From Trinickia caryophylli (lineage in GTDB: Bacteria > Pseudomonadota > Gammaproteobacteria > Burkholderiales > Burkholderiaceae): a stretch of 64,000 nucleotides of DNA. The position numbers and the translations under genes were made by a program. Shown here in pieces: positions 22,851-59,136 of the stretch. Location of the stretch: contig NZ_CP139971.1 in assembly GCF_034424545.1 (NCBI RefSeq), positions 868,001-932,000 of the forward strand, in the 5' to 3' direction. Every line of letters starts with the position of its first letter. The stretch's first letter is position 1. The notes beneath the pieces are model-generated. The model worked only from the letters and a program-made list of their open reading frames with translations, had not been told where the DNA came from and made no database searches.

Positions 22851-23234
22851 ATCGGTAGCGCCGCTCGATCGCTCGACGGCGCGGTTTCCTTGCTGAAGGA
22901 CGCCATTGCCCTTCGTCAGCCGCCCGCAAACGGCGGCTTGCCGACTCCGACCCGCGGCAAAGCCGCCGTTGGCTCTGCCACGGCCGCTCACGCAATAGCC
23001 ATGCCATCGCGCCTGCCGTGCGGCACCGCAACACCGCGCACGCAGCGGCAGCGCGGCGCAATGCGCGCGTGGGCACGGTCATGAGCACGTACACGACGGC
23101 GCACGTTGGTGCATCGCGGCACCCGACGCACCGGCACAGGGAAGTGGAGAACCGCACGGCAAGCTGCGCGCCGGTTTTCGAGAAGCGCTCCGCGAAGCAT
23201 GCCGAAAGCCGCCTGGAAGCGGGCTGGAAGCGAA
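22851..23234. other. Gene-free interval between the PilJ-like and FAD dehydrogenase genes
   Basis: This 384-base interval separates two minus-strand genes. It should contain the promoter of the PilJ-like gene near 22900 and the end of the FAD dehydrogenase transcript. I see no convincing frame, strong hairpin or repeat in it. Confidence 0.35.
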
Positions 23235-24467
23235 CTAGAAGCGGTCGACGCGAAACGGCGCCGGGTCGACGAAAGGTACCGCGCCCGTCATCATTTCGGC
23301 AATGAGGCGGCCCGTCACGGGGCCGAGCGTGAGGCCGTGATGCGCATGGCCGAAAGCGAACCAGAGGTCCTTGTGGCGCGGCGCAGGGCCGATGACGGGC
23401 AGCATGTCGCCGGTACAGGGCCGCTGCCCCATCCACGGCTCGCTGTCCACCCGCTCGCCCAGCGGAAAGAGCGCCCGCGCGATCGGCTCGACGGCGGTAA
23501 GCTGATCGGGTGTCTTGGGCTCGTCGAGCAATCCGAGTTCCGCGCCGGTTGTGAGCCGCACGCCGCGCGCCATCGGCGTAATGAGGTACCCCTTCTCCGC
23601 ATCGAGCACGGGATGATTGAGCCGCGCGTTCGCGCTGGAACGATAGTGCATGTGATAGCCGCGCTTGATGCCGAGCGTGAGCCGGTAGCCCAGGCGCTCG
23701 CTGAGCGGGGCCGACCAGGGCCCCATCGCCACCACCGCGCTCTTGGCCTCCACGGCGCCGGCTTCCGTGCGCACGCGCCACTTCGGCTCGAGCGTCGTCG
23801 CGTCGCCCGTCAGGAAACGCCCGCCGAGCGCTTCGAAATAGCGCGCGTAAGCCATCACGAGCGCGTTTGGATCGTCGACCGACACGGCTTGCGTGTAGTG
23901 CACGGCGCCGACGAGCGCCGGCGACAAATCGGGCTCGAGCGCATGCAAGGCAGCGGGATCGAGCGCGTCGTAGGCGACGCCGAACTCCGCCTTCCACCGT
24001 TCGGCAGTCTTCAATTCTTCCTCGAAGCGGTCCGGCGTACGGTAGACCCGCATCCAGCCGTTGCGGCGCAGCGAGCCCGCAACGCCTGCCGCTTCGGCCA
24101 GCGCATCGTGCTCGCTCACGCAATGCTCGATCAACGTGGCGTAGCGCCGCGCAATGGCCGCATGCCGTCCCGGCGCCGAATTACGCCAATAGCGGAACAG
24201 GAACGGTGCCAGCTTGGGCATGGCCGCCGGATGATAGCGAACGTCGAGCGCCTTGTTGCCGGCATAGTGCAGCAGCGCGCCCAGGCCGCGCGGAAAAGCG
24301 TAGGGATAAACGCCCTCGCGCTGGATGAGCCCGGCATTGCCGAACGATGTCTCGTTACCGGGCGGCTTGCGATCGATCAGCGCCACGGCCAGCCCGCGCT
24401 TTTGCAGATGGACGGCAACGGAAACGCCGACCATGCCGGCGCCAAGCACAAGAGTGTCGAATTTCAT
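23235..24467 (-). CDS. FAD-dependent D-amino acid dehydrogenase-like oxidoreductase
   Basis: This 410-residue DAO-fold flavoenzyme resembles DadA. The FAD-binding motif VLGAGMVGVS begins at residue 7. PPGNETSFGNAGLIQREG matches the DadA N-terminal region. Near the end, WMGQRPCTGDMLPVIGPA and FAFGHAHHGLTLGPVTGRL are typical of this family. Such enzymes oxidise amino acids or opines to keto acids and pass electrons to the respiratory chain. It is transcribed divergently from an XRE-cupin regulator with tandem operators between, so it is probably that regulator's target. Exact substrate unknown. Confidence 0.87.
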   Translation of the reverse strand: MKFDTLVLGAGMVGVSVAVHLQKRGLAVALIDRKPPGNETSFGNAGLIQREGVYPYAFPRGLGALLHYAGNKALDVRYHPAAMPKLAPFLFRYWRNSAPGRHAAIARRYATLIEHCVSEHDALAEAAGVAGSLRRNGWMRVYRTPDRFEEELKTAERWKAEFGVAYDALDPAALHALEPDLSPALVGAVHYTQAVSVDDPNALVMAYARYFEALGGRFLTGDATTLEPKWRVRTEAGAVEAKSAVVAMGPWSAPLSERLGYRLTLGIKRGYHMHYRSSANARLNHPVLDAEKGYLITPMARGVRLTTGAELGLLDEPKTPDQLTAVEPIARALFPLGERVDSEPWMGQRPCTGDMLPVIGPAPRHKDLWFAFGHAHHGLTLGPVTGRLIAEMMTGAVPFVDPAPFRVDRF

Positions 24468-45568: not shown

Positions 45569-47659
45569 CTAGCAGGCTGCGAGTGCCGGGCTGCCGGAAA
45601 CCGTTCCGGCGGGTCCGGCCATGGCCATCAGATCGGCAATGTCGAGAATCAGGGCGACGTCGCCGCTACCGAGAATCGTGGATCCACTCACGCCGCGCAC
45701 TTTGCCGAACATCTTGGAAAGCGGCTTGATGACGGTCTGGGCTTCACCGAGCAGGCGATCCACGAGCAGCCCGAAGCGCTGGCCGGCGTGCTTGACGACG
45801 ACGATGTTCGGACGCGCGCTTTCCGGGCCCTCGAGTTCGAAGCGCTCGCGCAGCCGAATGAAGGGCAGTACTTGCCCACGCAAATCGGTGTAGTCGTGCT
45901 CACCGCTCGACGAGAACTCGACACACTCTTCCACCGCATCGAGCGGCAAAATGAAGATCGAATCGCCGACGCAAACCTGAAACCCATCGATGATCGCGAG
46001 CGTGAGCGGCAACCGCACCGAGATCGTGGTGCCGATCCCTGCACGGCTGTCGATACCGATGCTGCCGCGCAGCGCCGTGATGTTGCGCTTGACCACATCC
46101 ATGCCGACGCCGCGCCCAGACAGGTTCGTCACCCGTTCGGCCGTGGAGAATCCCGGCTCGAAGATGAGCGCGTGGATTTCGTCGTCGGAAAGCGTGGCGT
46201 CGTGCGGCACGATCCCGCGTTCTACCGCCTTGGCTAGGATGCGATCGCGATCGAGCCCGCCGCCGTCGTCGCTGACCTGAATGACGATCGAGCCGGAATC
46301 GTGGAAGGCGTTAAGCGTCAGCGTGCCCTGCTCCGGTTTCCCGCGTGCGCGCCGGACCTCGGCGGGCTCGATGCCGTGGTCCATCGAATTACGCACGAGG
46401 TGCGTCAATGGATCGCCGATCTTCTCGACCACCGTCTTGTCGAGTTCGGTTTCTTCGCCCTCGACCACCAGTTCGATGCGCTTGCCCAGTTCCTGAGCCA
46501 CATCGTGCACGACCCGGCGAAAACGATTGAACGTCGCACCGATCTTGACCATGCGCAATTGCAGCGCGCTGTCCCTCACCTTCTGAATCAGGCCGGTCAG
46601 CGTTGCCGCGGATTCGCGCAACTCGCTGTTCTGAGCCTTGCGCGCCGCGAGCTCGGTACTCGCAGAGGCGGTAATGAGCTCTCCCACGAGGTCGATCAGA
46701 TGATCGAGCTTGTCGGCGTCGATACGAATCGAGTGAGAATCGGCCGCTTTGCCCTCGCGCGCGGGGGCGCCGCTGCGTGCGGATCCTGTCGCCGATGCGG
46801 TTGCGGTATCGGCGTTGGCAGCGTGGAGGGCGGCCGGCGGCCGTCCATCGTCTTCGGCCATCGCGACCGGCTCGCGGGAGACTACGACGGCCGGCTCCTT
46901 CGGCAGATCCGCAGGCTCGCCGTCGGCAGCCGTTATTTCCAGCGTGCAATCCTCGCGGATGAACTCGAACGCACCTTCCACGGCCTGCCTGCCCGCATCG
47001 CTGAGCAGCTCGATATGGAACGCCAGATAGCAGGCCTCGGGGTCGAGCGCCTCGAGCGAGGGGACACCATCGACGTTCGTCGCGATGCGTGTGACCTCGC
47101 CAAGCCGTGCAAGGTAATGGATGATAGAGAGCGGGTCCATCCCGTTGCGCAACACCGGCTCGCCGCATTGCAAGGAAATGAGCCAGCGCTGCATGCCAGG
47201 CGTTGCCGCCGCATCGCTGCCGTTGTCCGTGCGCGTATCGGGAGCGGGTTGCGAGCCGTCCCCGGAGGCGGCCAGATAGCGGCCGAGCGCGCCCACGAGG
47301 GGCTGCGCCTGCGCGAGCAGCGCTTCGTCGGCGCAATTCCCGGTTTCCGCCGTGAGCTCCACGAGCAGCCCGATATGATCGCCGCACGCGAGCAGCAACG
47401 AGATCAGCGATTCGTCGATGCGGATTTCGTTGTCGCGCACGCGATCGAGCACACTTTCGACCACGTGCGTAAACGCCACGATTCCGTCGATCCCGAAAAG
47501 CCCCGACGAGCCCTTGATCGTATGCGCCGCGCGAAACACGGCGTTGATCTCGTCGCTCGGATCGGCGCTGTCTCGCATGCTGAGCAGGCCGTTTTCCATC
47601 AGTGCGAGCAACTCGCGGCTTTCCGCGATGAAGGTCTGCAGTGCGTCGTCGATATTCAT
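45569..47659 (-). CDS. cheA: Chemotaxis histidine kinase CheA
   Basis: The 696-residue kinase has an N-terminal Hpt domain with the phospho-site in AAHTIKGSSG (His46). A middle region at about 155-240 includes PLSIIHYLARLGEVTRI. It is followed by a linker, dimerisation helices (DKLDHLIDLVGELITAS) and an ATPase domain (LTHLVRNSMDHGIEPAEVRR; DDGGGLDRDRI; GRGVGMDVV). A CheW-like C-terminal domain completes it. The middle region is not the classical P2. It receives signals from the neighbouring receptors and phosphorylates CheY and CheB. Its start overlaps the STAS gene stop in an ATGA arrangement. Confidence 0.95.
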   Translation of the reverse strand: MNIDDALQTFIAESRELLALMENGLLSMRDSADPSDEINAVFRAAHTIKGSSGLFGIDGIVAFTHVVESVLDRVRDNEIRIDESLISLLLACGDHIGLLVELTAETGNCADEALLAQAQPLVGALGRYLAASGDGSQPAPDTRTDNGSDAAATPGMQRWLISLQCGEPVLRNGMDPLSIIHYLARLGEVTRIATNVDGVPSLEALDPEACYLAFHIELLSDAGRQAVEGAFEFIREDCTLEITAADGEPADLPKEPAVVVSREPVAMAEDDGRPPAALHAANADTATASATGSARSGAPAREGKAADSHSIRIDADKLDHLIDLVGELITASASTELAARKAQNSELRESAATLTGLIQKVRDSALQLRMVKIGATFNRFRRVVHDVAQELGKRIELVVEGEETELDKTVVEKIGDPLTHLVRNSMDHGIEPAEVRRARGKPEQGTLTLNAFHDSGSIVIQVSDDGGGLDRDRILAKAVERGIVPHDATLSDDEIHALIFEPGFSTAERVTNLSGRGVGMDVVKRNITALRGSIGIDSRAGIGTTISVRLPLTLAIIDGFQVCVGDSIFILPLDAVEECVEFSSSGEHDYTDLRGQVLPFIRLRERFELEGPESARPNIVVVKHAGQRFGLLVDRLLGEAQTVIKPLSKMFGKVRGVSGSTILGSGDVALILDIADLMAMAGPAGTVSGSPALAAC

Positions 47660-47979
47660 GAAGCGCTCTCTGGAAATGCCGGCAGCGTCCCGCCAGACGG
47701 TTCGGCTTGCATCAATGCCTGCGGCAGGCCCAGCAGTGCGAGCGTTGCCCGCACGGCATCGCCGGCACCGACGAACTCGCAGGCTTGCGCGCGATCCGCC
47801 GCGCTGCGTCGCGCGGCAACGAGCAGTTGCACACCGGCACAGTCGATTTCGGGCACGGCGGACAAGTCGAAACGCACGCTGCCGCCCTGCTCGAGGGCAG
47901 CGAACATGCGCTCCTTGAGTTCTGCGGCGTGATAGATCGTCAGCGGGGTCTCGACGCGGACGGTAAGAAGGGCATCCAT
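47656..47979 (-). CDS. STAS-domain protein in che operon
   Basis: The 107-residue protein has the STAS (anti-sigma-factor-antagonist-like) fold. It shows VRVETPLTIYHAAELKERM and the loop EIDCAGVQLLVAARR, where the phosphorylatable Ser or Thr of classic antagonists is replaced by Cys. It lies between cheY and cheA with a 4-base overlap to cheA, so it is part of the operon. STAS proteins in che clusters are known in several alternative chemosensory systems, but the role is unclear. GGAG stands before the ATG. Confidence 0.85.
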   Translation of the reverse strand: MDALLTVRVETPLTIYHAAELKERMFAALEQGGSVRFDLSAVPEIDCAGVQLLVAARRSAADRAQACEFVGAGDAVRATLALLGLPQALMQAEPSGGTLPAFPESAS

Positions 47980-48005
47980 TGCCGGTGCTCCGTCGCCAGC
48001 GAGCT

Positions 48006-48374
48006 TCAAGGTAACACCAGCTTTTCCACAGCGGCGAGCAGTTGGGGCGGCTGGAACGGTTTGACGACCCACGCCTTTGCACCCGCCAACTGCCCTTCGC
48101 GTTTCTTCGCGTCCTGACTTTCCGTCGTCAGCATCACGATCGGCGTGAACTTGTAGGCGGGCATCTGTTTGACGGCCTTGATGAAGGCAATGCCGTCCAT
48201 GTTCGGCATGTTCAGATCGCTGATCATCAGATGGACCTTTTGTCCCTGCAGTTTCGCCAGCGCATCCTTGCCGTCGCATCCTTCGATGACTTCGTAGCCC
48301 GCGCCGCGAAGCGCGATGCCCACGACCTGCCGCACCGATGCCGAATCGTCGACGATCAAGATGGTCTTTGCCAT
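48006..48374 (-). CDS. cheY: CheY-like single-domain response regulator
   Basis: This is a 122-residue receiver-only protein. The acidic pair is in ILIVDDSASVRQ, the phosphorylation Asp in LMISDLNMPNMDG, and the switch residues are TTES and KPFQ. No output domain is present. It would be phosphorylated by the adjacent CheA and either contact flagellar motors or act as a sink; no cheZ is nearby. GAGGG precedes ATG 48374. It follows the mcp gene by 8 bases. Confidence 0.92.
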   Translation of the reverse strand: MAKTILIVDDSASVRQVVGIALRGAGYEVIEGCDGKDALAKLQGQKVHLMISDLNMPNMDGIAFIKAVKQMPAYKFTPIVMLTTESQDAKKREGQLAGAKAWVVKPFQPPQLLAAVEKLVLP

Positions 48375-48382
48375 AACAGCCC

Positions 48383-49531
48383 TCAAAAGAAAGTAATGTC
48401 GGAATTCGATTCAGCCGCTTGCGTGCTGGTTTTCGCGTCGCCCTGATGCAGCGCCCGCTCTTCGGCCATGGCGTATGTCTTTTCCAGCTCGCCGAGCAGT
48501 ACGTTGGCCTCGATGGGCGGCGGCGCCGCGCCCTGACCGTATTGCGCGCAGTGTTGGTCGACCACCTCGGGAAGACGTTCTATGTTGGCCTTCACGTGCT
48601 GCATGATCTGACTCACGCGATCCTGGAACTGCAGTTGGACGAGCGCCTCGTAGACTTCCACTTTGATACTGCGGCTCTCGTCGCGCAGTAATTCGGCGGA
48701 CGCTTCGAGCGACGAAGTGAAGTCGCGGAATCGGACGAGCACCTGCTCGATGGAACGCTGCGAATCGGACATGGCAACGGTGTCGTGCTCGGCCGTCCGC
48801 TCCGCGGCGTGGCACGCGCAAACGATTGCGTCACGGATCGTTTCGATCTTCGCGGCGATGTTCGCTCCCGTTTCGCTCGATTTGCGCGACAGGGCGCGCA
48901 CCTCCTGCGCGACGGTGGCAAATCCGCGCCCGACGTTGCCTGCGTGTGCGGCCTCGATCGCCGCGTTGATCGCGAGCAGATTCGTCTGTTGCGTGATGAG
49001 CCCGATCGCCTCGACCATGCCGCGCAATTCGTCGACGAAGCCGTGCAGTTGGCGCACCTGGCCGAGCATTTCCGCTTTGCTGTCTACCGCGGCGCGCAGC
49101 CGTTGAACGACGGCCTGCAGTTCGTGTTCGCTGGCCGAATAAACGTCATTGCCGCCCGGCGCGCCGGCAGCGCCGCCGGAGGAAGCACCCAGCACGGTAT
49201 CGAGCCGCGAGGCGATGCCGCCAAACCGGCCGCTCAGCGCCGTAATCGCGGTTTCCATTTGCGAGCGCGAGGATTCGATGTGCCGCGCCCAGACGGGCGC
49301 AAGATCCGCGCTGAAGGCGCGCTGACTCTCGAAGTACCGCTGCAACTCGCGCACGATGCGTGCGTCGGCCGTGCGCTGTCGCCAACCCAGCGCGACGCCA
49401 GCGAGGGCGAGGGCCAGGCCCAGCGCCGCACCGCCCATGCTGAACGACGATAGGGCCAGGCAAGCCAGCGCGGCCACGCAGCCCAGTAACGGGCTTGCCA
49501 GCCAAAGAAACTTATCTTGCGTATGCGTCAT
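48383..49531 (-). CDS. Methyl-accepting chemotaxis protein without periplasmic domain
   Basis: The 382-residue receptor opens with two close membrane segments at about 8-51 (FLWLASPLLGCVAALACLAL; GLALALAGVALGW). It therefore has almost no periplasmic loop and must sense inside the cell or membrane. The signalling domain contains LITQQTNLLAINAAIEAAHA, then GFATVAQEVRALSRKS. The C-terminal part (QFQDRVSQIMQHVKANIE) is unusual and resembles receptors that act with FlhF-like or che2 clusters. It heads the operon mcp-cheY-STAS-cheA-cheR-cheB. The start at 49531 is supported by the membrane segment. Confidence 0.85.
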   Translation of the reverse strand: MTHTQDKFLWLASPLLGCVAALACLALSSFSMGGAALGLALALAGVALGWRQRTADARIVRELQRYFESQRAFSADLAPVWARHIESSRSQMETAITALSGRFGGIASRLDTVLGASSGGAAGAPGGNDVYSASEHELQAVVQRLRAAVDSKAEMLGQVRQLHGFVDELRGMVEAIGLITQQTNLLAINAAIEAAHAGNVGRGFATVAQEVRALSRKSSETGANIAAKIETIRDAIVCACHAAERTAEHDTVAMSDSQRSIEQVLVRFRDFTSSLEASAELLRDESRSIKVEVYEALVQLQFQDRVSQIMQHVKANIERLPEVVDQHCAQYGQGAAPPPIEANVLLGELEKTYAMAEERALHQGDAKTSTQAAESNSDITFF

Positions 49532-49974
49532 GAAAATCGAAATGTTTTCCTGCGGCGATAAAATCAGTGCCACACCGTCTTCGGAAAACAAAATAACGGG
49601 TATGAGCGCGTTTACGTTCGCTGCGGGTTTTTCTTGATGGGAGTGACCCGAAAACCCGCGAGGCGAACGCGGCAAAATCGCATGGCGTGGCCGCATGGGC
49701 TTGGGGATCTTTTCTTCATATGGGCAAAACAGGAAACGTCCTACTCAAAGCAGCGGCCTCCCTTCACATGCGTTGCTTACTTCGGCCTGGACTGCGGATT
49801 TCCTTTGGCCGTGCCGAAACACTCACCCGAACGTTCCGCTTTCATTTTCTTCGCAGAGATCACCCTGATTAAGGGTTCGATAAGGGTTAATCGATTTCAA
49901 TCGATGGATAAAGGCAAACGAGCCCGCCGTTTCCGGCGTGCTCGCTTCCTTGTCCTCCAAGCGAAAGGCGAGCT
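49532..49974. other. Intergenic region between the che operon and SphA-like gene
   Basis: The region is 443 bases between two minus-strand genes. It includes the terminator of the SphA-like gene (49919-49944) and, nearer 49532, the unidentified promoter of the che operon. Short repeats AAGGGTT and ATCGAT occur at 49870-49905. No supported gene is seen. Confidence 0.4.
49919..49944 (-). terminator. Terminator after the SphA-like gene
   Basis: On the minus strand CGAGCACGCCG pairs with CGGCGGGCTCG around a GAAA loop, with one mismatch. T-rich GTTTGCCTTT follows. It lies 30 bases downstream of the stop. Confidence 0.7.
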
Positions 49975-50949
49975 TTAGAAATGATGGTCGTATCGGATCT
50001 GGAACTTGTTACCCTCGGTTCGATTGCGCACCGCGAACTCCCTGTAGTAATTGACGAACAGGAAGTCCTTCGGCGAGAGGGCCACCATGGCGGCGGGTCC
50101 GAGCCCGACCACCTGCTCGCGCCGGCCCGGCACCTCGGTACCGTTCACCTTCGTGTCGGTGATCTGCCTGAGCCAATAGCCGCTCAGGCCCGCAACGAGG
50201 CCCTTTTTGAACTCGTATTCGAGCGCCACGTTGGCGTGCAGCGCCTGCCCCGCCTGAGTGGAGGTCGCTTCGGTGCCGAAGGCGGCGTTCGGCTCGCTGT
50301 TTCGCGCATTCCACAAATAGTTGAAGCGGCCGCTGAGGCTCAGCTTCGGCGTGGCCCAGAAGGTGAAGGCCCAGTAGGGATCGAGCGACCAGAAGTTGCT
50401 GCCCGGGCTGACAGAGGCCGTCCGGTCGTAACGCCCCGTAGGCGCGATCACCTGTAATTCGAAGCGCTGCGAAAACAGCGGCCCCTGCGCGCCCATGATC
50501 GGATCGAACTGCAGCGAGACACCCACGGTTACGTCACCGATGCCCCGGGTGCCTTTCAACACGCTGTTGCCCATCCCGTCATCGACATGAGCCGACGCCA
50601 CCCACGGCACGAGCAACTGAAAACCAAGCTGCTTGTTGCCCCACTTGGCGCCCTGCGGCACATAGAGGAATTGAGTGACCGGGACGAACAGATCGAATTT
50701 TTGCTTCGGCGGAAAAGCCGACTGATTGCCGCCGTTGTCCATCAACTTGCTGGCCGAATAATAAGTCAGGTATTCGATCATGTAGAAACCCGGGCCGCCG
50801 GGCAGCGGAGCGCCATCGAAAAAGCTCGTGCCGCCCATGTTGACGGACGGCTCATCGAAGGCCCGGGCGGTCTGACAAGCAGCAGCGACGCAGCTCGCGA
50901 GCAGCAGCGTCCTGATGTGCTTGATGCACTTGATACGGTCGATCTTCAC
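49975..50949 (-). CDS. SphA-like outer-membrane protein (phenol meta-pathway type)
   Basis: The 324-residue protein has a signal peptide (TLLLASCVAAACQTARA) and is then beta-rich. It carries GFYMIEYLTYYSASKLMDN and RGIGDVTVGVSLQFDP, and ends KFQIRYDHHF, as outer-membrane barrels of the Phenol_MetA_deg/SphA family do. It probably aids entry of an aromatic or phenylpropanoid compound. The GTG at 50949 has AGGAGA upstream; the open extension is Arg-rich. It lies 196 bases after the SDR gene on the same strand. Confidence 0.8.
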   Translation of the reverse strand: MKIDRIKCIKHIRTLLLASCVAAACQTARAFDEPSVNMGGTSFFDGAPLPGGPGFYMIEYLTYYSASKLMDNGGNQSAFPPKQKFDLFVPVTQFLYVPQGAKWGNKQLGFQLLVPWVASAHVDDGMGNSVLKGTRGIGDVTVGVSLQFDPIMGAQGPLFSQRFELQVIAPTGRYDRTASVSPGSNFWSLDPYWAFTFWATPKLSLSGRFNYLWNARNSEPNAAFGTEATSTQAGQALHANVALEYEFKKGLVAGLSGYWLRQITDTKVNGTEVPGRREQVVGLGPAAMVALSPKDFLFVNYYREFAVRNRTEGNKFQIRYDHHF

Positions 50950-51145
50950 AAAATGTCTCCTGCATGGTCCGATCGCGCGGCGCGCACGCGCCCCGGCCGC
51001 GCGCATGGGGCGGCAAGTGCGTCGATCGAAACCTTGTCGATGTTGCGATGAATGGTCGGAACACCGCTCGCCAGCCGGATGGCGGGCAAAGCGCGGCCGT
51101 TCCGTCACGCGGCCGTCCAACGTCGAAAGCGATGTCGCGCTAGTG

Positions 51146-51913
51146 CTAGTAATAGGTGGAGGCAAGCCCACCGTCGACGGGCACGTTGACGCCGTTGACC
51201 CAGCGTGTTTCGTCGGCGCACAACAGCGCGATGACCGGTGCGATCTCGTCCGGATACGCGGGACGCTTCATCCGGTGCGCGTCTTTCTCCACCCGCTCGG
51301 CGCCGAGCATCGCGACGAAGTCGCCAAGGATTGGCGTGAATACCGGCCCCGGTGCCACGCAGTTCATGCGCACGGCACGTTGCAGGAAGAGCTTTTGCGC
51401 CTGCGTCAGCGTCCAGACGATCAGGGCTTCCTTGAAGTACTGATAGCAGGTCGCTTGCGGTACCGGGTGCCCTTTCAGCCACGCTTCCCCAGCCTCGAAG
51501 CCGCGCGTTTCGGCCAGTGACTTATGCAGGTCGATGCGCTGAGGCCACTCGGCGCCGAGGATCGATGCCACGTTGACGATGGCACCGCCCTCGGGCATGC
51601 GCGGCAACACGCACTCCGTCAACTGCCGCAAGCCGAGATAGTTGACGCGCGCGACGAGTTCCACCGAAGCCGTGCCCGGCACGCCGGCGATGTTGCACAA
51701 CCCGTCGATTTGCGCCGGCAACTGCGCGACCGCCTTGTCGATTCCTTCCATGGTCGAAAGGTCGGCCTGAACATGGCCGTCGAGGCTGATGCCCGGCGCG
51801 TTGCGGTCCACACCGATCACACGCGCGCCATGAAAGCGCAGCAGGCGCGCGGTCTCGGCTCCGATGCCCGACGAGGCACCGGTCACGACGATGGTCTTGT
51901 CGTTCAGTTTCAT
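51146..51913 (-). CDS. calA: Coniferyl-alcohol dehydrogenase-like SDR (CalA-like)
   Basis: The 255-residue short-chain dehydrogenase starts MKLNDKTIVVTGASSGIGAE. This start, plus RVIGVDRNAPGISLDGHVQ and PVPQATCYQYFKEALIVW with the catalytic Tyr/Lys, resembles CalA of Pseudomonas. That enzyme oxidises coniferyl alcohol to coniferyl aldehyde with NAD. The substrate could also be another aryl alcohol. AGGAGGAG precedes the start. It lies 48 bases downstream of the aldehyde dehydrogenase gene and should be cotranscribed with it. Confidence 0.8.
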   Translation of the reverse strand: MKLNDKTIVVTGASSGIGAETARLLRFHGARVIGVDRNAPGISLDGHVQADLSTMEGIDKAVAQLPAQIDGLCNIAGVPGTASVELVARVNYLGLRQLTECVLPRMPEGGAIVNVASILGAEWPQRIDLHKSLAETRGFEAGEAWLKGHPVPQATCYQYFKEALIVWTLTQAQKLFLQRAVRMNCVAPGPVFTPILGDFVAMLGAERVEKDAHRMKRPAYPDEIAPVIALLCADETRWVNGVNVPVDGGLASTYY

Positions 51914-51961
51914 GCTTGTCTCCTCCTTCGATTTATTTCGATGCCGTCAAGCAACGTCTTT

Positions 51962-53440
51962 TCACAACGGATACTGCGGCGCGCGTGCCTTGACGGTGGT
52001 CCATTGCCACTGCGTGTACTCCTCCCAGTCGGCCGGGCCGCCCACGCTCGTGCCGTTGCCGGCAATGCCGGGGCCACCGAACGGGTTCACGCAGTCGTCG
52101 TTGACGGTCTGGTCGTTGATGTGAACCATTCCGACGCGCAAGCGCTGCCCGAGCGCCATGGCGCGCCCGACCGACGCGGAGATAACGCCGGCCGACAGCC
52201 CGCCCTGACTGTTGTTGGCCAGTTCCACCGCTTCGTCGTCACTGTGGAAAACGATGATGTTCGCCACCGGCCCGAAGACCTCCTCCTCGAACACGCGCAT
52301 GCCGGGCCGCACGCCCCCGAGCACGGTAGGCCGATAGAACAGTCGTTCGTACGTGCCGCCCGCCAGCAGTCGCGCCCCGGCGGCCACGCTGTCCTGCACG
52401 AGCGCATGTACCCGCTGCAATTGCTTGCGATCGATCAGCGGCCCAAGCGCCGCTTTTCCGCTCGCGCCGTCGCCCACCGGAAGATGCCGCGCCTTGTCGA
52501 CTAGCCGTGCTGTCAATTCGTCCGCCAGCGACGCGTGTACGAGAATGCGGTTGGCCGCCATGCAGATCTGCCCCTGGTGCAGCCATGCGGCCCAGGCAGC
52601 GTTGCTGACGGCGAGATCAAGGTCGGCGTCGTCGAGGATGATCAGCGCGTTGGCGCCGCCCAATTCGAGCGAGACTTTTTTCAGGTGGCGGCCCGCCAAC
52701 TCGCCTATGCGGCGGCCGACTGCCGGCGAGCCGGTAAACGCGATCATCGGTACCCGCGGATGCGCGACGAGCGCCTCGCCCGCCTCGGCACCGCCCGGCA
52801 GCACGTGCAGCAGCCCGGCCGGCAAGCCGGCTTCCGCGAAGATGCGGGCGATGAGATAGCCGCCGGACACCGGCGTGCGCAGATCCGGCTTGACCACGAC
52901 GGCGTTGCCGGCCGCGAGCGCTGGCGCCACCGAGCGCAGCGTCAGAATGAGCGGGAAATTGAACGGCGAAATCACACCCACCACACCGAACGGCGCCCTG
53001 CGCGCGTAGCTGAGGCAGCCTGCGGGGCTGGCCAACACCTGCCCTTGCGGGTCCAGCGGCATGCCGGCCGCCAGGTGGCACAGCGTGATCGCCTCCCGCA
53101 CCTCGTGCTGCCCCTTGAACAATACGCCGCCGGTTTCGCGCGCGATGGCAAGAGACAGTTCATCGAAGTGCTGCGAGAACAGCGCGGCGGCGCGGCGGAA
53201 CACCTCGGCGCGATCGCGCGGCGCCATGGCCACCCACGCAGGTTGAGCCGCTGCCGCTGCCTGCGCGGCGGCGCTCATGTCCTCGGCCTCGGCCAGACCC
53301 ACGCAGGTCAGCGGGTGGCCGGTGGCGGGTTCGATCACGTCCACGGTCTGCCGGCGCAAGGGCGGTACCCACTCCCCCAGGAACAGCAGACCGTTCCACT
53401 GGGCGTCGTCCAGAAAGTGCATTGATTCCGGGGCATTCAT
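51962..53440 (-). CDS. Aromatic (benzaldehyde/coniferyl-type) aldehyde dehydrogenase
   Basis: This 492-residue NAD(P)-dependent aldehyde dehydrogenase shows ISPFNFPLILTLRSVAPALA, SLELGGANALIILDDADL and the catalytic Cys in HQGQICMAANR. The tail WEEYTQWQWTTVK is typical of benzaldehyde dehydrogenases such as XylC. Next to an aryl alcohol dehydrogenase it would complete alcohol to aldehyde to acid. AAGGAG precedes ATG 53440. A strong sigma-54 promoter lies about 100 bases upstream, next to a XylR/DmpR-type activator. Confidence 0.85.
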   Translation of the reverse strand: MNAPESMHFLDDAQWNGLLFLGEWVPPLRRQTVDVIEPATGHPLTCVGLAEAEDMSAAAQAAAAAQPAWVAMAPRDRAEVFRRAAALFSQHFDELSLAIARETGGVLFKGQHEVREAITLCHLAAGMPLDPQGQVLASPAGCLSYARRAPFGVVGVISPFNFPLILTLRSVAPALAAGNAVVVKPDLRTPVSGGYLIARIFAEAGLPAGLLHVLPGGAEAGEALVAHPRVPMIAFTGSPAVGRRIGELAGRHLKKVSLELGGANALIILDDADLDLAVSNAAWAAWLHQGQICMAANRILVHASLADELTARLVDKARHLPVGDGASGKAALGPLIDRKQLQRVHALVQDSVAAGARLLAGGTYERLFYRPTVLGGVRPGMRVFEEEVFGPVANIIVFHSDDEAVELANNSQGGLSAGVISASVGRAMALGQRLRVGMVHINDQTVNDDCVNPFGGPGIAGNGTSVGGPADWEEYTQWQWTTVKARAPQYPL

Positions 53441-53549
53441 CAATCGTGTCTCCTTTGCTGAGGTGGGATCTTCATCGGCCGGCCGCTCGGGGCTCGTGGT
53501 CTTCCGCTTACTGCTTTCGAGCCGGGCGCCGATTGCCGGCTCCCCCGAT

Positions 53550-53565
53550 TGCAAGCGCTATGCCA
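53550..53565 (-). promoter_or_regulatory. Sigma-54 (-24/-12) promoter for the aromatic operon
   Basis: On the minus strand TGGCAT-AGCGC-TTGCA matches the sigma-54 consensus TGGCAC-N5-TTGCA at 11 of 12 defined positions, including both invariant GG and GC. It lies in the 327-base gap between the divergent aldehyde dehydrogenase and activator genes, in the right orientation for the former. Confidence 0.75.
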
Positions 53566-53689
53566 TCGGCAGCCGCGTGCGCGCATGCTGTCATGCAGCA
53601 ACCGCTCGCTGCCGTTGCGTCGTGGCCATTTCCTCGCGGCGCAGCACTGCGCTGCCCGCAACGCAGCAGTGCCTCAGGCAAAACCCCGA

Positions 53690-53707
53690 CTTGCTGATTT
53701 GAGCAAG
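53690..53707. promoter_or_regulatory. Inverted repeat, candidate enhancer (UAS) for the activator
   Basis: CTTGCT-GATTTG-AGCAAG is a perfect 6-base dyad lying about 130-160 bases upstream of the sigma-54 promoter, where XylR/DmpR-type activators bind. The match to known sites is only positional and general. Confidence 0.45.
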
Positions 53708-53767
53708 CACGGACAGTATCAGGGTTCCTGACATCATCATTTGAACAATCTCTTCCCGGACCGGCTC

Positions 53768-55648
53768 ATGGCGCAGTTGCCCCGTATTTCCCTCGCCGAT
53801 GTGGCGCGCATCGCCGGGACCGTGCTCTGCCCCGCCGGCAGCGACCGCTGGAGTGCCGATTCGCAGCCCACGTTGGCCGACATCAGCGAATGCGTGTACT
53901 TCTCGCCGGGCGACGGCCGCATTTGGCTGAACGATCAGCGCATGCTGTTGCTGCACAGCCGGGCGATGGGGACGCTGCGCCGCGAACTGATCGACAGCCT
54001 CGGCATCGACAAAGCGCGCGGGCTGCTCACGCGCTCCGGCTATGTATCGGGCGCGCACGATGCGCGGCTCGTGCGGGAACGCTGGTCCGATGCCGATCCG
54101 TCGGCAATCTTCGTTGCCGGCACGCGGCTGCATACGCTCGAAGGCGTGGTGAAGGTCGTGCCGGTCAGCTTCAGCTACAACCCCGAAAGCGGCCGCTATC
54201 GCGGCGAGTTCCTATGGCACAACTCCAGCGAGGACGACGAACATCTCGATGCCTACGGTGTAGGCACTTCGCCGGCTTGCTGGCTGGAACTCGGCTACGC
54301 GATCGGCTACGTGAGCACGCTGCTCGGGCATCTGGTGATCTTTCGGGAAGTGGAATGTCGATCGATGGGCGCGGCGGTGTGCCGGGTGATCGGCCAATCG
54401 GCGGAGCTGTGGGACGACGCGAGCGAAGACCTGCGCTACCTGAACGCGCAGGACTTCGTCGGCTCCGGCATGCTCGCCGCAAGCGTACCTGTCGCGACGG
54501 CGCCAGGAGTCGGTCCGGAACCGGCGCCGGGGCCAAGCGATGGGGCGAGGTCTGCGCAGGAGGAACGCGGAGCGAACGAGTCATCCGGGCCGGCACTCGT
54601 CGGTGCCTCTTCCGCGTTCAATGCGGCGTGCCACCTGCTGCGGCGCGTAGCCCCGACCGATGCCACGGTGCTGTTCACGGGCGAGTCGGGCGTCGGCAAG
54701 GAGCGCTTCGCGCGCATGCTGCATCAGATCAGCCGGCGCCAGGATAAACCGTTCGTCGCCATCAATTGCGCGGCCATTCCGGAAACGCTGGTGGAGGCCG
54801 AGCTGTTCGGCGTGGAGCGCGGCGCGTATACGGGCGCCACGCATTCGCGCGCGGGGCGCTTCGAACTGGCGCACGAGGGTACGCTCTTTCTCGACGAGAT
54901 CGGCACCTTGAGTCTCGTGGCGCAGGGCAAGCTCTTGCGCGCACTGCAGGAAGGGGAACTCGAGCGCGTGGGATCGAGCGCGACACGGCGCGTCAATACG
55001 CGCGCGGTGGCCGCCACCAATGAGGACTTGCTGCAGGCCGTGCGCGAGGGGCGCTTTCGTCAGGATCTCTTTTTCAGGCTCAACGTATTTCCGATCCACT
55101 TGCCGCCGCTGCGCGAGCGCCGCGACGATATCCCGCTCCTGATGAGCCATTTTCTGAAGACGTATGCGCACAAACATGGCCTTGCGGTGCGCGGGTTCAC
55201 TCCGCGCGCGATCAAAGCGCTGCTCAATTACAGCTTCCCGGGCAACATCCGCGAACTGCAGAATCTGGTGGAGCGCGGCGTAATCCTCGCGCAGGAAGGA
55301 CTGCTCGATCTCTCGCACATGTTCATCAGTGGGGAAACGCTCGACCAGGAAGTGTTGTCGTTGGCCATCGCCGGTGAAGTGGGAACGCTCGCCCGCGAAG
55401 AGGGACGCGACGAGGGACTGGAAGCCGCGGCGCCGCCATCGAAAACGCTGCTGGATCTGGTGAGCGCGTGGAGCCAGCGGCAGCACGGCAGCGTGGCATC
55501 GCTGCCGGTACTCGAACAAACGCTATTGGAGGAAGCCGTCGAGCGCGCCGGCGGAAATCTGTCGTCGGCTGCGCGCGCGCTGGGTATCACACGCGCGCAG
55601 TTGGCTTACCGATTACAACGGCGAGCAGCGGGAAACGGTGACCATTGA
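53768..55648 (+). CDS. XylR/DmpR-type sigma-54-dependent activator
   Basis: The 626-residue protein has the XylR/DmpR layout. An N-terminal sensor domain runs at about 1-100, and a V4R-type ligand pocket at about 110-200 contains [21 protein letters not shown] sigma-54 AAA+ domain follows (Walker A GESGVGKE at 305, GAYTGA at 352 in place of the usual [17 protein letters not shown]). A Fis-type [22 protein letters not shown], ends it. It should sense an aromatic ligand and activate the divergent operon. ATG 53768 is chosen; an in-frame TTG at 53741 is weakly supported. Confidence 0.88.
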
Positions 55649-58309: not shown

Positions 58310-59136
58310 CCCGCTGCGAGTCGACGAATACCGCGCAGGCATGCGGTGCCTGCATCGAGGTAACCAACCTCAATACTCAGCAGTCAGTGGTCGTGCGCGT
58401 GGACAACAGTTGCCCCGGATGCGCGGCCGGCAACGTCGACCTGTCGCAGGAGGCCTTCGCCCTGATCTCGCCGATCGGCGCAGGCCAAATTCCTATCAGT
58501 TGGAAGTACGTCTCCTGCGCGCCGCCGACCATGAAGCTGTATTTCAAGGAAGGCTCCTCCCAGTGGTGGACCGCGGTGCAGGTGCGCGATCACCGCAATC
58601 CCGTCGCGTCTTTGGCTTACCGGGCGAGTGGCAGCACCGGTGCCTACATCCCGCTCGAGCGGCAGACGTACAACTATTTCCTGGCGCCCAGCGGAATGGG
58701 ACCGGGCCCCTACGACCTGCAGATCACCGATGTGTTCGGCCAAACCATCACCGCCACCGGCGTGGCGCTGGCCGTCACCACCGAGATCGATTTGGGGCAG
58801 CAGTTCCCGGCACTGCTGCCGTCCGCCGACGGCAGCAGCAGCGGTTCGTCCGGTGGAAGCGGCGATAGCGGAAGCACGGCAACCCAGCCGGCCACGGCGA
58901 GCGTTTCCGTGGCGAACGACTGGGGCCAAGGCTATTGCAGCAATGTGACGGTGACGAATCCAAATACCGTTCCCCTGACCTGGACCGTCTCGTTCGCCAG
59001 CGCCGGAACGATTTACACCTCGTGGAATGCCACCCTGTCGCAAAGCGGTGGCACGGTGACAGCCAGTGGGGTGGCATGGAATCAGGTGCTGCAGGCAGGC
59101 GCCAATACTTCGTTCGGCTTTTGCGCCAATCGATGA
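58297..59136 (+). pseudogene. 5'-truncated bacterial expansin with CBM2 domain
   Basis: This frame is open from 58297 but has no ATG, ribosome site or signal peptide. It encodes AQACGACIEVTN and RVDNSCPGCAAGNVDLSQEA, then ISWKYVSCAPPTMKLYFKEG. These are the rear of expansin domain 1 and domain 2, as in plant-associated bacteria. A Ser/Gly linker (about 58828-58890) and a CBM2-like tail (NDWGQGYCSNVTVTNPN; SFGFCANR) follow. The front of domain 1 and the export signal are missing, replaced by the end of the MFS gene. Expansins loosen plant cell walls; this copy is probably inactive. A GTG start at 58387 would leave it unsecreted. Confidence 0.75.

Follow-up and report, generated by a model that had tools for sequence, protein, structure and literature searches.

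The window analysed here, 64,000 nucleotides of the Trinickia caryophylli genome (contig NZ_CP139971.1, forward-strand positions 868,001 to 932,000), carries on its plus strand the gene of a XylR/DmpR-type sigma-54 activator and, divergently from it on the minus strand, an operon (49975-53440) of an aldehyde dehydrogenase (ALDH), a short-chain dehydrogenase/reductase (SDR) and an outer-membrane beta-barrel. An earlier reading of this DNA from its letters (the sequence-only reading) had suggested that the locus is a sigma-54-inducible module that converts an aromatic alcohol to its acid. The features are listed below in window coordinates.

53768..55648, plus strand: XylR/DmpR-type sigma-54 activator, 626 aa from ATG 53768; sensor (XylR_N and V4R), AAA+ and Fis-type helix-turn-helix domains
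53733..53748, no strand assigned: upstream activating dyad 2 (ATCATCATTTGAACAA), 15.5 bits; the weaker one, just 5' of the likely start of the activator
53691..53706, no strand assigned: upstream activating dyad 1 (TTGCTGATTTGAGCAA), the dyad of the sequence-only reading, 21.4 bits
53550..53565, minus strand: -24/-12 promoter TGGCAT-AGCGC-TTGCA, score 12.7 of 13.8; conserved in relatives
51962..53440, minus strand: aryl aldehyde dehydrogenase (ALDH), 492 aa, start at 53440; similar to benzaldehyde and 4-hydroxybenzaldehyde dehydrogenases
51146..51913, minus strand: SDR alcohol dehydrogenase, 255 aa, of the 'coniferyl-alcohol dehydrogenase' subfamily
49975..50949, minus strand: PF13557 outer-membrane beta-barrel, about 324 aa from GTG 50949; frame open to 51171

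The first enzyme of the operon matched Aldedh with 505 bits (Pfam), carries the motifs GQICM and LELGG, and has 4-hydroxybenzaldehyde dehydrogenase as its nearest solved relative. The SDR reached 406.4 bits against NF009092 'coniferyl-alcohol dehydrogenase' (cut-off 242), which is a subfamily model and not an equivalog, and so belongs to the CalA-like subfamily; the motifs expected for activity, TGASSGIG and YQYFK, are both present, and the closest solved relative is 3-alpha-hydroxysteroid dehydrogenase (1fjh). The barrel gave 203.7 bits with PF13557 (Pfam) and a weak match to 4rl8 in the PDB (E 3.5e-5). Its start was picked by eye, GTG 50949 being the likelier one because an apparent signal-peptide stretch begins just after it, and the gene probably shares a transcript with the SDR and ALDH genes. 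In the genome as a whole, neither a close second copy of the SDR nor any other ALDH match above 41% identity was found.

All four domains of the activator exceed their Pfam cut-offs (XylR_N 124, V4R 50.5, Sigma54_activat 225.6 and HTH_8 42.3 bits), and they follow one another in the order of the XylR/DmpR type: XylR_N, V4R, sigma-54 AAA+ (including the lid), Fis-type helix-turn-helix. Together with the divergent layout, this bears out the sequence-only reading, which had placed just such an activator opposite the operon. The frame (53741-55648) is open from TTG 53741, and ATG 53768 is the likely start because the database copy has 626 aa. As a whole protein the activator has CapR/DmpR as its closest solved relatives, and the sensor alone has PoxR, CapR/DmpR and MopR. 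The best NCBIfam match, the phenol degradation regulator MobR (NF041906), stays under its cut-off, at 496.9 bits against 999. The motifs GESGVGK and GAYTGA, expected for activity, are present, so that the loop contacting sigma-54 is the GAYTGA variant of the GAFTGA type; among 87 sequences, three of which are sensor-only PDB segments, GAYTGA occurs in 41, GAFTGA in 42 and neither in 4. A search of the genome returned a single XylR_N match, the activator itself, and two rpoN genes. With the activators of R. pseudosolanacearum and R. syzygii, the window protein shares 83% identity. In a FastTree phylogeny the window protein groups with that of genome G281, two Ralstonia proteins and P0002 (support 0.999), with Herbaspirillum joining next.

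The promoter at 53550-53565 reads TGGCATAGCGCTTGCA on the minus strand and would start transcription near 53540. It was scored with author-set weights, consensus and threshold (11.8; maximum 13.8). When the 327-bp gap between ALDH and activator was shuffled 1000 times with its dinucleotides preserved, 6 of the shuffles attained a score of 12.7 on either strand. Two other sites in the 64 kb outscore it, while five shuffled windows gave 0 to 2 such sites. Taken alone, this evidence is modest. The promoter becomes convincing because it is conserved across the gaps of relatives: in 67 of 79 gaps (78 relatives and the window) the operon strand reaches 11.8, as against 1 of 79 for the opposite strand, and the operon strand outscores the other in 72. 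The score of each locus was reached by 0 to 28 of 200 shuffles of its own gap. Shuffles preserved base composition only for the relatives' gaps, the motif training and the 64-kb scans, and dinucleotides for the 1000-shuffle tests of the window; the gap scanned in one locus (L079) is overlong, at 1058 bp, as only the best matched activator piece was used there. The TGGCAT-N5-TTGCA promoter proposed by the sequence-only reading is thereby upheld. The two higher-scoring sites of the window, both on the minus strand, are one at 562-577 (13.3, the top score), just 3' of a large NAD-glutamate dehydrogenase gene, and one at 22991-23006 (12.8), at the start of a PilJ/MCP-type gene (MCP, methyl-accepting chemotaxis protein), which may be due to chance.

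A palindromic motif was then learned by expectation-maximisation from the DNA upstream of the -24 box in the 78 relatives, with the window left out. The result, TTGATCAATTGATCAA, is what we take to be the XylR/DmpR-type site. Its log-likelihood was 708, compared with 70-81 for eight shuffled sets, and was reached by 5 of 15 starts. With this matrix, dyad 1 outscores every other position of the 64 kb and dyad 2 comes third; the dyad which the sequence-only reading had seen at 53690-53707 is thus recovered to within one base at each end. The second-best match (23287-23302, 16.5 bits) lies inside another frame, about 280 bp upstream of the 22991-23006 site. A site of at least 15 bits was held by 3 of 1000 dinucleotide shuffles of the gap. 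The centres of the two dyads are 42 bp apart, dyad 2 being further upstream, and their ends are 125 and 167 bp from the -24 box; in Herbaspirillum huttiense (L047) the corresponding distances are 124 and 166 bp. According to the excerpted text of PMC7264223, palindromes of the XylR/DmpR type stand about 100-200 bp upstream of a -24/-12 promoter, and the spacing at the window locus agrees with this rule. Sites of at least 8 bits were counted in the scanned gaps of the 78 relatives with a matrix that included the window, and a few of them lie downstream of the -24 box: 48 gaps hold two, 27 hold one and 3 (L031, L049, L080) hold none. Because dyad 2 ends 20 bp before the likely ATG of the activator, the activator may regulate its own gene through it.

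It could be supposed that the -24/-12 site and the dyads are chance resemblances and that the neighbouring genes are not under the control of the activator, since a promoter-like site of such a score is expected about once per 64 kb. Nevertheless, the relatives repeatedly have sites of this kind in their gaps, and the two dyads rank first and third in the window, which leaves this explanation very improbable.

The gene arrangement was compared across 80 loci, the best 80 of 343 relatives found with an SDR profile, a set biased towards close relatives and SDR-bearing loci. Gene order was read mainly from tblastn matches, as the gene caller picked some antisense frames. The activator is divergent in 78 of the 80, from ALDH in 66 and directly from SDR in 12; the exceptions are L076, which starts inside ALDH, and L081, where the activator was not found. 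ALDH and SDR lie at most 300 bp apart in 60 of the 66 activator-ALDH loci. The same layout occurs on a conjugative plasmid of Neorhizobium galegae HAMBI 1141 (46, 53 and 61% identity for activator, ALDH and SDR), where the promoter has the maximum score and a dyad scores 22.6 bits. Promoter and dyad are both present in G281 and G023, while L150 has the promoter and no good dyad (3.3 bits). Three SDR-ALDH operons without the activator (L144-L146) have neither a dyad of similar quality, the best scoring -2.0 bits, nor a strong promoter, the best scoring 11.1, as expected if these sites belong to the activator.

Conservation in 78 of 80 loci, of the gene pair as well as of its promoter and enhancer dyads, gives good support both to the wiring through sigma-54 and to the alcohol-to-acid function first proposed by the sequence-only reading. 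We consider it probable that the module is an inducible peripheral pathway for an aromatic alcohol, driven by its activator via sigma-54. In the proposed mechanism, a small hydroxylated aromatic would bind the V4R pocket of the activator, which would occupy the two TTGATCAATTGATCAA-type dyads, some 160 and 200 bp upstream, and open the sigma-54 polymerase at the -24/-12 site at the expense of ATP. The SDR would then convert the alcohol to the aldehyde, and ALDH the aldehyde to the acid, which would be degraded by pathways encoded elsewhere in the genome. An outer-membrane channel is probably also made from the operon.

The sensor pocket bears on the ligand. In phenol sensors the phenol hydroxyl is held by a His/Trp dyad and zinc is bound by three Cys and one Glu (excerpts of PMC10715001 and PMC7264223), while in XylR a Tyr replaces that His (PMC7264223). 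By alignment, the window sensor has H131 and W159, as do the phenol sensors DmpR, MopR and PoxR, and the zinc ligands C180, E203, C206 and C214 of the XylR/DmpR type (635-aa numbering). Every one of the 77 relatives whose sensor entered the alignment retains His/Trp and the four zinc ligands; L079, the 78th, was left out, its sensor being a separate matched piece. As this hydroxyl anchor is retained, the ligand probably bears a hydroxyl, and a phenolic hydroxyl appears likelier than a benzylic one. Of 11 further residues of the MopR cavity the window keeps 7 and differs at 103 (T), 166 (V), 176 (F) and 191 (V), and it also differs from MopR at the neighbouring position 163 (I). Two pocket types were seen among the 77 rows: type 1 (47 rows) has V166, F176 and V191 with T (45 rows), P or A at 103, and type 2 (30 rows) has P103, T166, Y176 and L191. 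The latter includes Duganella-like loci and 12 Pseudomonas loci. The two types (L031-L110) partly track lineage and neighbouring genes, and they may mark two classes of ligand.

As to the substrate, relatives of the SDR and ALDH (64-68% identity) in G366, G277 and G087 stand in one operon with p-hydroxycinnamoyl-CoA hydratase/lyase (Ech; 467-469 bits, cut-off 276). These are the operons of L144, L145 and L146, which lack the activator and its sites. In L144, Ech is followed by an ATP-grasp-type acyl-CoA ligase, and L145 and L146 have a similarly sized gene in that place. Such an SDR-ALDH-Ech-ligase set is what is expected for a route from alcohol through aldehyde, hydroxycinnamate and CoA ester to benzaldehyde, and these Ech-partnered relatives would favour hydroxycinnamyl alcohols as the substrate. 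The most likely substrates are taken to be para-hydroxyaryl compounds, hydroxycinnamyl (monolignol) alcohols first, then vanillyl or 4-hydroxybenzyl alcohol. The coniferyl alcohol hesitantly named in the sequence-only reading agrees with the His/Trp pocket and with the Ech-operon relatives, though benzyl- and 4-hydroxybenzyl-type alcohols fit as well.

Elsewhere in the genome we found benA (888.6 bits, cut-off 781) at C2:826810-828105, about 90 kb from the module on the same replicon, as well as pobA, three VanA_C matches and three Ech genes over cut-off. With its benA, pobA, vanA-like and ech genes, the genome offers the candidate acids a sink, at least in part. The sequence-only reading was right that no ring-cleavage genes adjoin the operon; to conclude that the pathway is incomplete would be wrong in view of these genes, and that conclusion was rejected. 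One of the genomic Ech genes adjoins an acyl-CoA synthetase (family PRK12582, under cut-off) and an ALDH 39% identical to that of the window. Vanillin thus probably has its own dehydrogenase in the genome, which mildly favours an earlier substrate for the window enzymes.

Further context for the substrate comes from P. fluorescens SBW25, where a gene set resembling the window module in annotations and gene order lies beside fcs-vdh-ech. Its members, PFLU3304-3307, are annotated in turn as hypothetical, as an SDR, as 'benzaldehyde dehydrogenase' and as a 'sigma-54-dependent Fis family' regulator; P. putida KT2440 has no cluster of the SBW25 type (PMC12642758). Excerpts of PMC12642758 give log2 rises of 6.52, 5.66, 6.99 and 2.52 for these SBW25 genes on methyl 3-(4-hydroxyphenyl)propionate compared with glucose. 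With methyl p-coumarate, the fitness of the SDR, ALDH and regulator is -0.7 to -0.9, and with the propionate ester it is 0.3 to 1.0.

Several points weigh against an activator-driven pathway for hydroxycinnamyl alcohols. In the same excerpts, the fitness of the SBW25 SDR, ALDH and regulator is near zero on p-coumarate and ferulate, and the authors tie ester use, or control of the neighbouring esterase, to the TetR-type PFLU3308 (PMC12642758), so the sigma-54 regulator is not necessarily the source of the induction. The substrate name of the SDR comes from a subfamily model, and a P. putida gene named calA proved to be a vanillin reductase (excerpt of PMC7054097). In 6 of the 66 activator-ALDH loci (L063, L034, L039, L080, L092, L098) the SDR lies 0.7-5.1 kb beyond ALDH. 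Among nine loci of the family with SDR relatives (L142-L150), the activator adjoins the SDR in only 2 (L142 and L150), hence the activator-SDR link is strong only among closer relatives. All three operon genes named by the sequence-only reading were confirmed by Pfam or NF009092, but the barrel is the least conserved part, since a close one occurs in only 1 of 80 loci, with four more at 29-30% identity. Finally, ALDH is nearest to benzaldehyde-type enzymes, and benA leaves benzyl alcohol open as a candidate substrate.

The last two points lead to an alternative in which the same module serves benzyl or 4-hydroxybenzyl alcohol or aldehyde and feeds benzoate or 4-hydroxybenzoate, rather than acting on hydroxycinnamyl alcohols. 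It agrees with the similarity of ALDH to both 4-hydroxybenzaldehyde and benzaldehyde dehydrogenases, and with the presence of pobA besides benA. Eleven Pseudomonas loci, ten of them sharing a pocket type, have in place of this ALDH another ALDH and an esterase-like gene; two of those other ALDHs were typed, and their best match was the benzaldehyde dehydrogenase MdlD, at 306 and 312 bits under a cut-off of 550. The Ech partners in three family genomes, on the other hand, indicate a three-carbon side chain, an Ech gene being within the fetched locus in 3 of 80 loci. We regard this alternative as possible and the less likely one.

The outer-membrane part raises a further alternative. According to excerpts of PMC6394551, AmeABCD of Castellaniella raises monoterpene tolerance. 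In 49 of the 80 loci, DUF1302, DUF1329, Ycf48-like and MMPL genes were found in the order of AmeABCD, so that genes like those of Castellaniella follow the SDR in many relatives, whereas the window has the PF13557 barrel there. The module might accordingly handle hydrophobic alcohols, terpenoid or sterol-like, with export as its main task, and the closest solved relative of the SDR is indeed a 3-alpha-hydroxysteroid dehydrogenase. However, no DUF1329 match was found in the genome of the window, the sensor keeps the His/Trp dyad together with the 7 of 11 other MopR cavity residues, and ALDH is of the benzaldehyde type, all of which makes this explanation improbable. A PF13557 barrel in the same place was found in H. 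huttiense (L047, 68% identity), and no barrel stands beside the SDR in G281, the closest relative examined. This weakly suggests that the outer-membrane part was swapped for a PF13557 barrel in the window and in H. huttiense.

Directly 3' of the operon, at 45569-49531 on the minus strand, lie MCP, CheY-like, STAS and CheA/CheW genes, and MCP genes are also found in the loci of some relatives (typed in L083 and L099). Chemotaxis towards the compounds of the module itself is possible. A sigma-54 promoter for the adjoining MCP gene was considered and rejected: a dyad-like site (49712-49727, 14.5 bits) lies 5' of it, and the best same-strand promoter score in 49480-49980 is 11.2, within the gene. 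On the other side of the module, a plus-strand gene at 58387-59136 encodes an expansin-like protein that has a cellulose-binding domain (CBM_2) and matches DPBB below threshold, which fits a plant-associated life.

The distribution of the module is patchy. Of 11 genomes of the genus, one has the SDR, and of 398 family genomes sampled, 18 have it with an E-value of at most 1e-60. Within the family, near relatives of the module are found in Ralstonia and Burkholderia. The activator of G023 is next to an ALDH (L151), and the SDR lies with another ALDH about 75 kb off. A second N. galegae plasmid (L123) has the SDR and a partial ALDH, with no match to the activator. As it is both patchy and carried on a plasmid, the module suggests spread by transfer, against which its ordinary GC content has to be set. 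Activators 53-54% identical to that of the window occur without the SDR in two genomes of its genus (L005, G005:C43; L006, G008:C36). On plasmid pAB510c of Azospirillum sp. B510 (L122), a related activator has as its neighbours, in place of ALDH-SDR, AmeABCD-like genes and a gene for an NAD(P)-dependent alcohol dehydrogenase.

We tentatively put forward a bolder proposal, which we hold to be rather less likely than otherwise: the activator could be a dedicated monolignol (hydroxycinnamyl alcohol) sensor and the founder of a branch of phenol sensors widespread in Burkholderiales and Pseudomonas and present also on a rhizobial conjugative plasmid, and it could drive an oxidation module of the plug-in kind, in which the outer-membrane parts can be exchanged. 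Bacteria of soil and plants encounter lignin-derived alcohols, and with promoter, dyads and pocket all conserved, the ligand can be tested directly. Such a sensor, if confirmed, would be a ready biosensor for products of lignin breakdown.

Among known systems, the areCBA/areR aryl-ester system of Acinetobacter combines an XylR-type activator with a zinc aryl alcohol dehydrogenase, a benzaldehyde dehydrogenase and an esterase. The window is similar in its XylR-type activator and its alcohol and benzaldehyde dehydrogenases, but an SDR stands in it where the are system has the zinc alcohol dehydrogenase, and the window neighbours tested include no esterase family, so that it falls outside the are type; an esterase-like gene is present in the locus of 17 of 80 relatives. 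CalA/CalB of Pseudomonas sp. HR199 are a 255-aa SDR named for coniferyl alcohol and a separate aldehyde dehydrogenase, and the window likewise has an SDR of 255 aa and a separate ALDH. In R. solanacearum GMI1000, the GAYTGA sigma-54 activator Rsp0228 is listed with the 'benzaldehyde dehydrogenase oxidoreductase' Rsp0229 as its potential target (PMC4676750). This is the same pairing of activator and ALDH, probably orthologous to that of the window, and in the excerpted text it is a prediction without dyads or pocket. Likewise, the strain-group genes given for N. galegae HAMBI 1141 in excerpts of PMC4417242 include a benzaldehyde dehydrogenase and a sigma-54 regulator with V4R. Components of the module are thus already published as predictions, to which this analysis adds the dyads, the interpretation of the pocket and the connection with Ech; among the literature matches listed, no sigma-54 sensor was assigned to lignin-derived alcohols. 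With the phenol and xylene sensors XylR, DmpR, PoxR and MopR, the window activator shares the domain order, the zinc ligands, the His/Trp dyad of the phenol sensors and TTGATCAATTGATCAA-type dyads, yet it apparently governs the oxidation of an alcohol and aldehyde instead of the hydroxylation of a ring.

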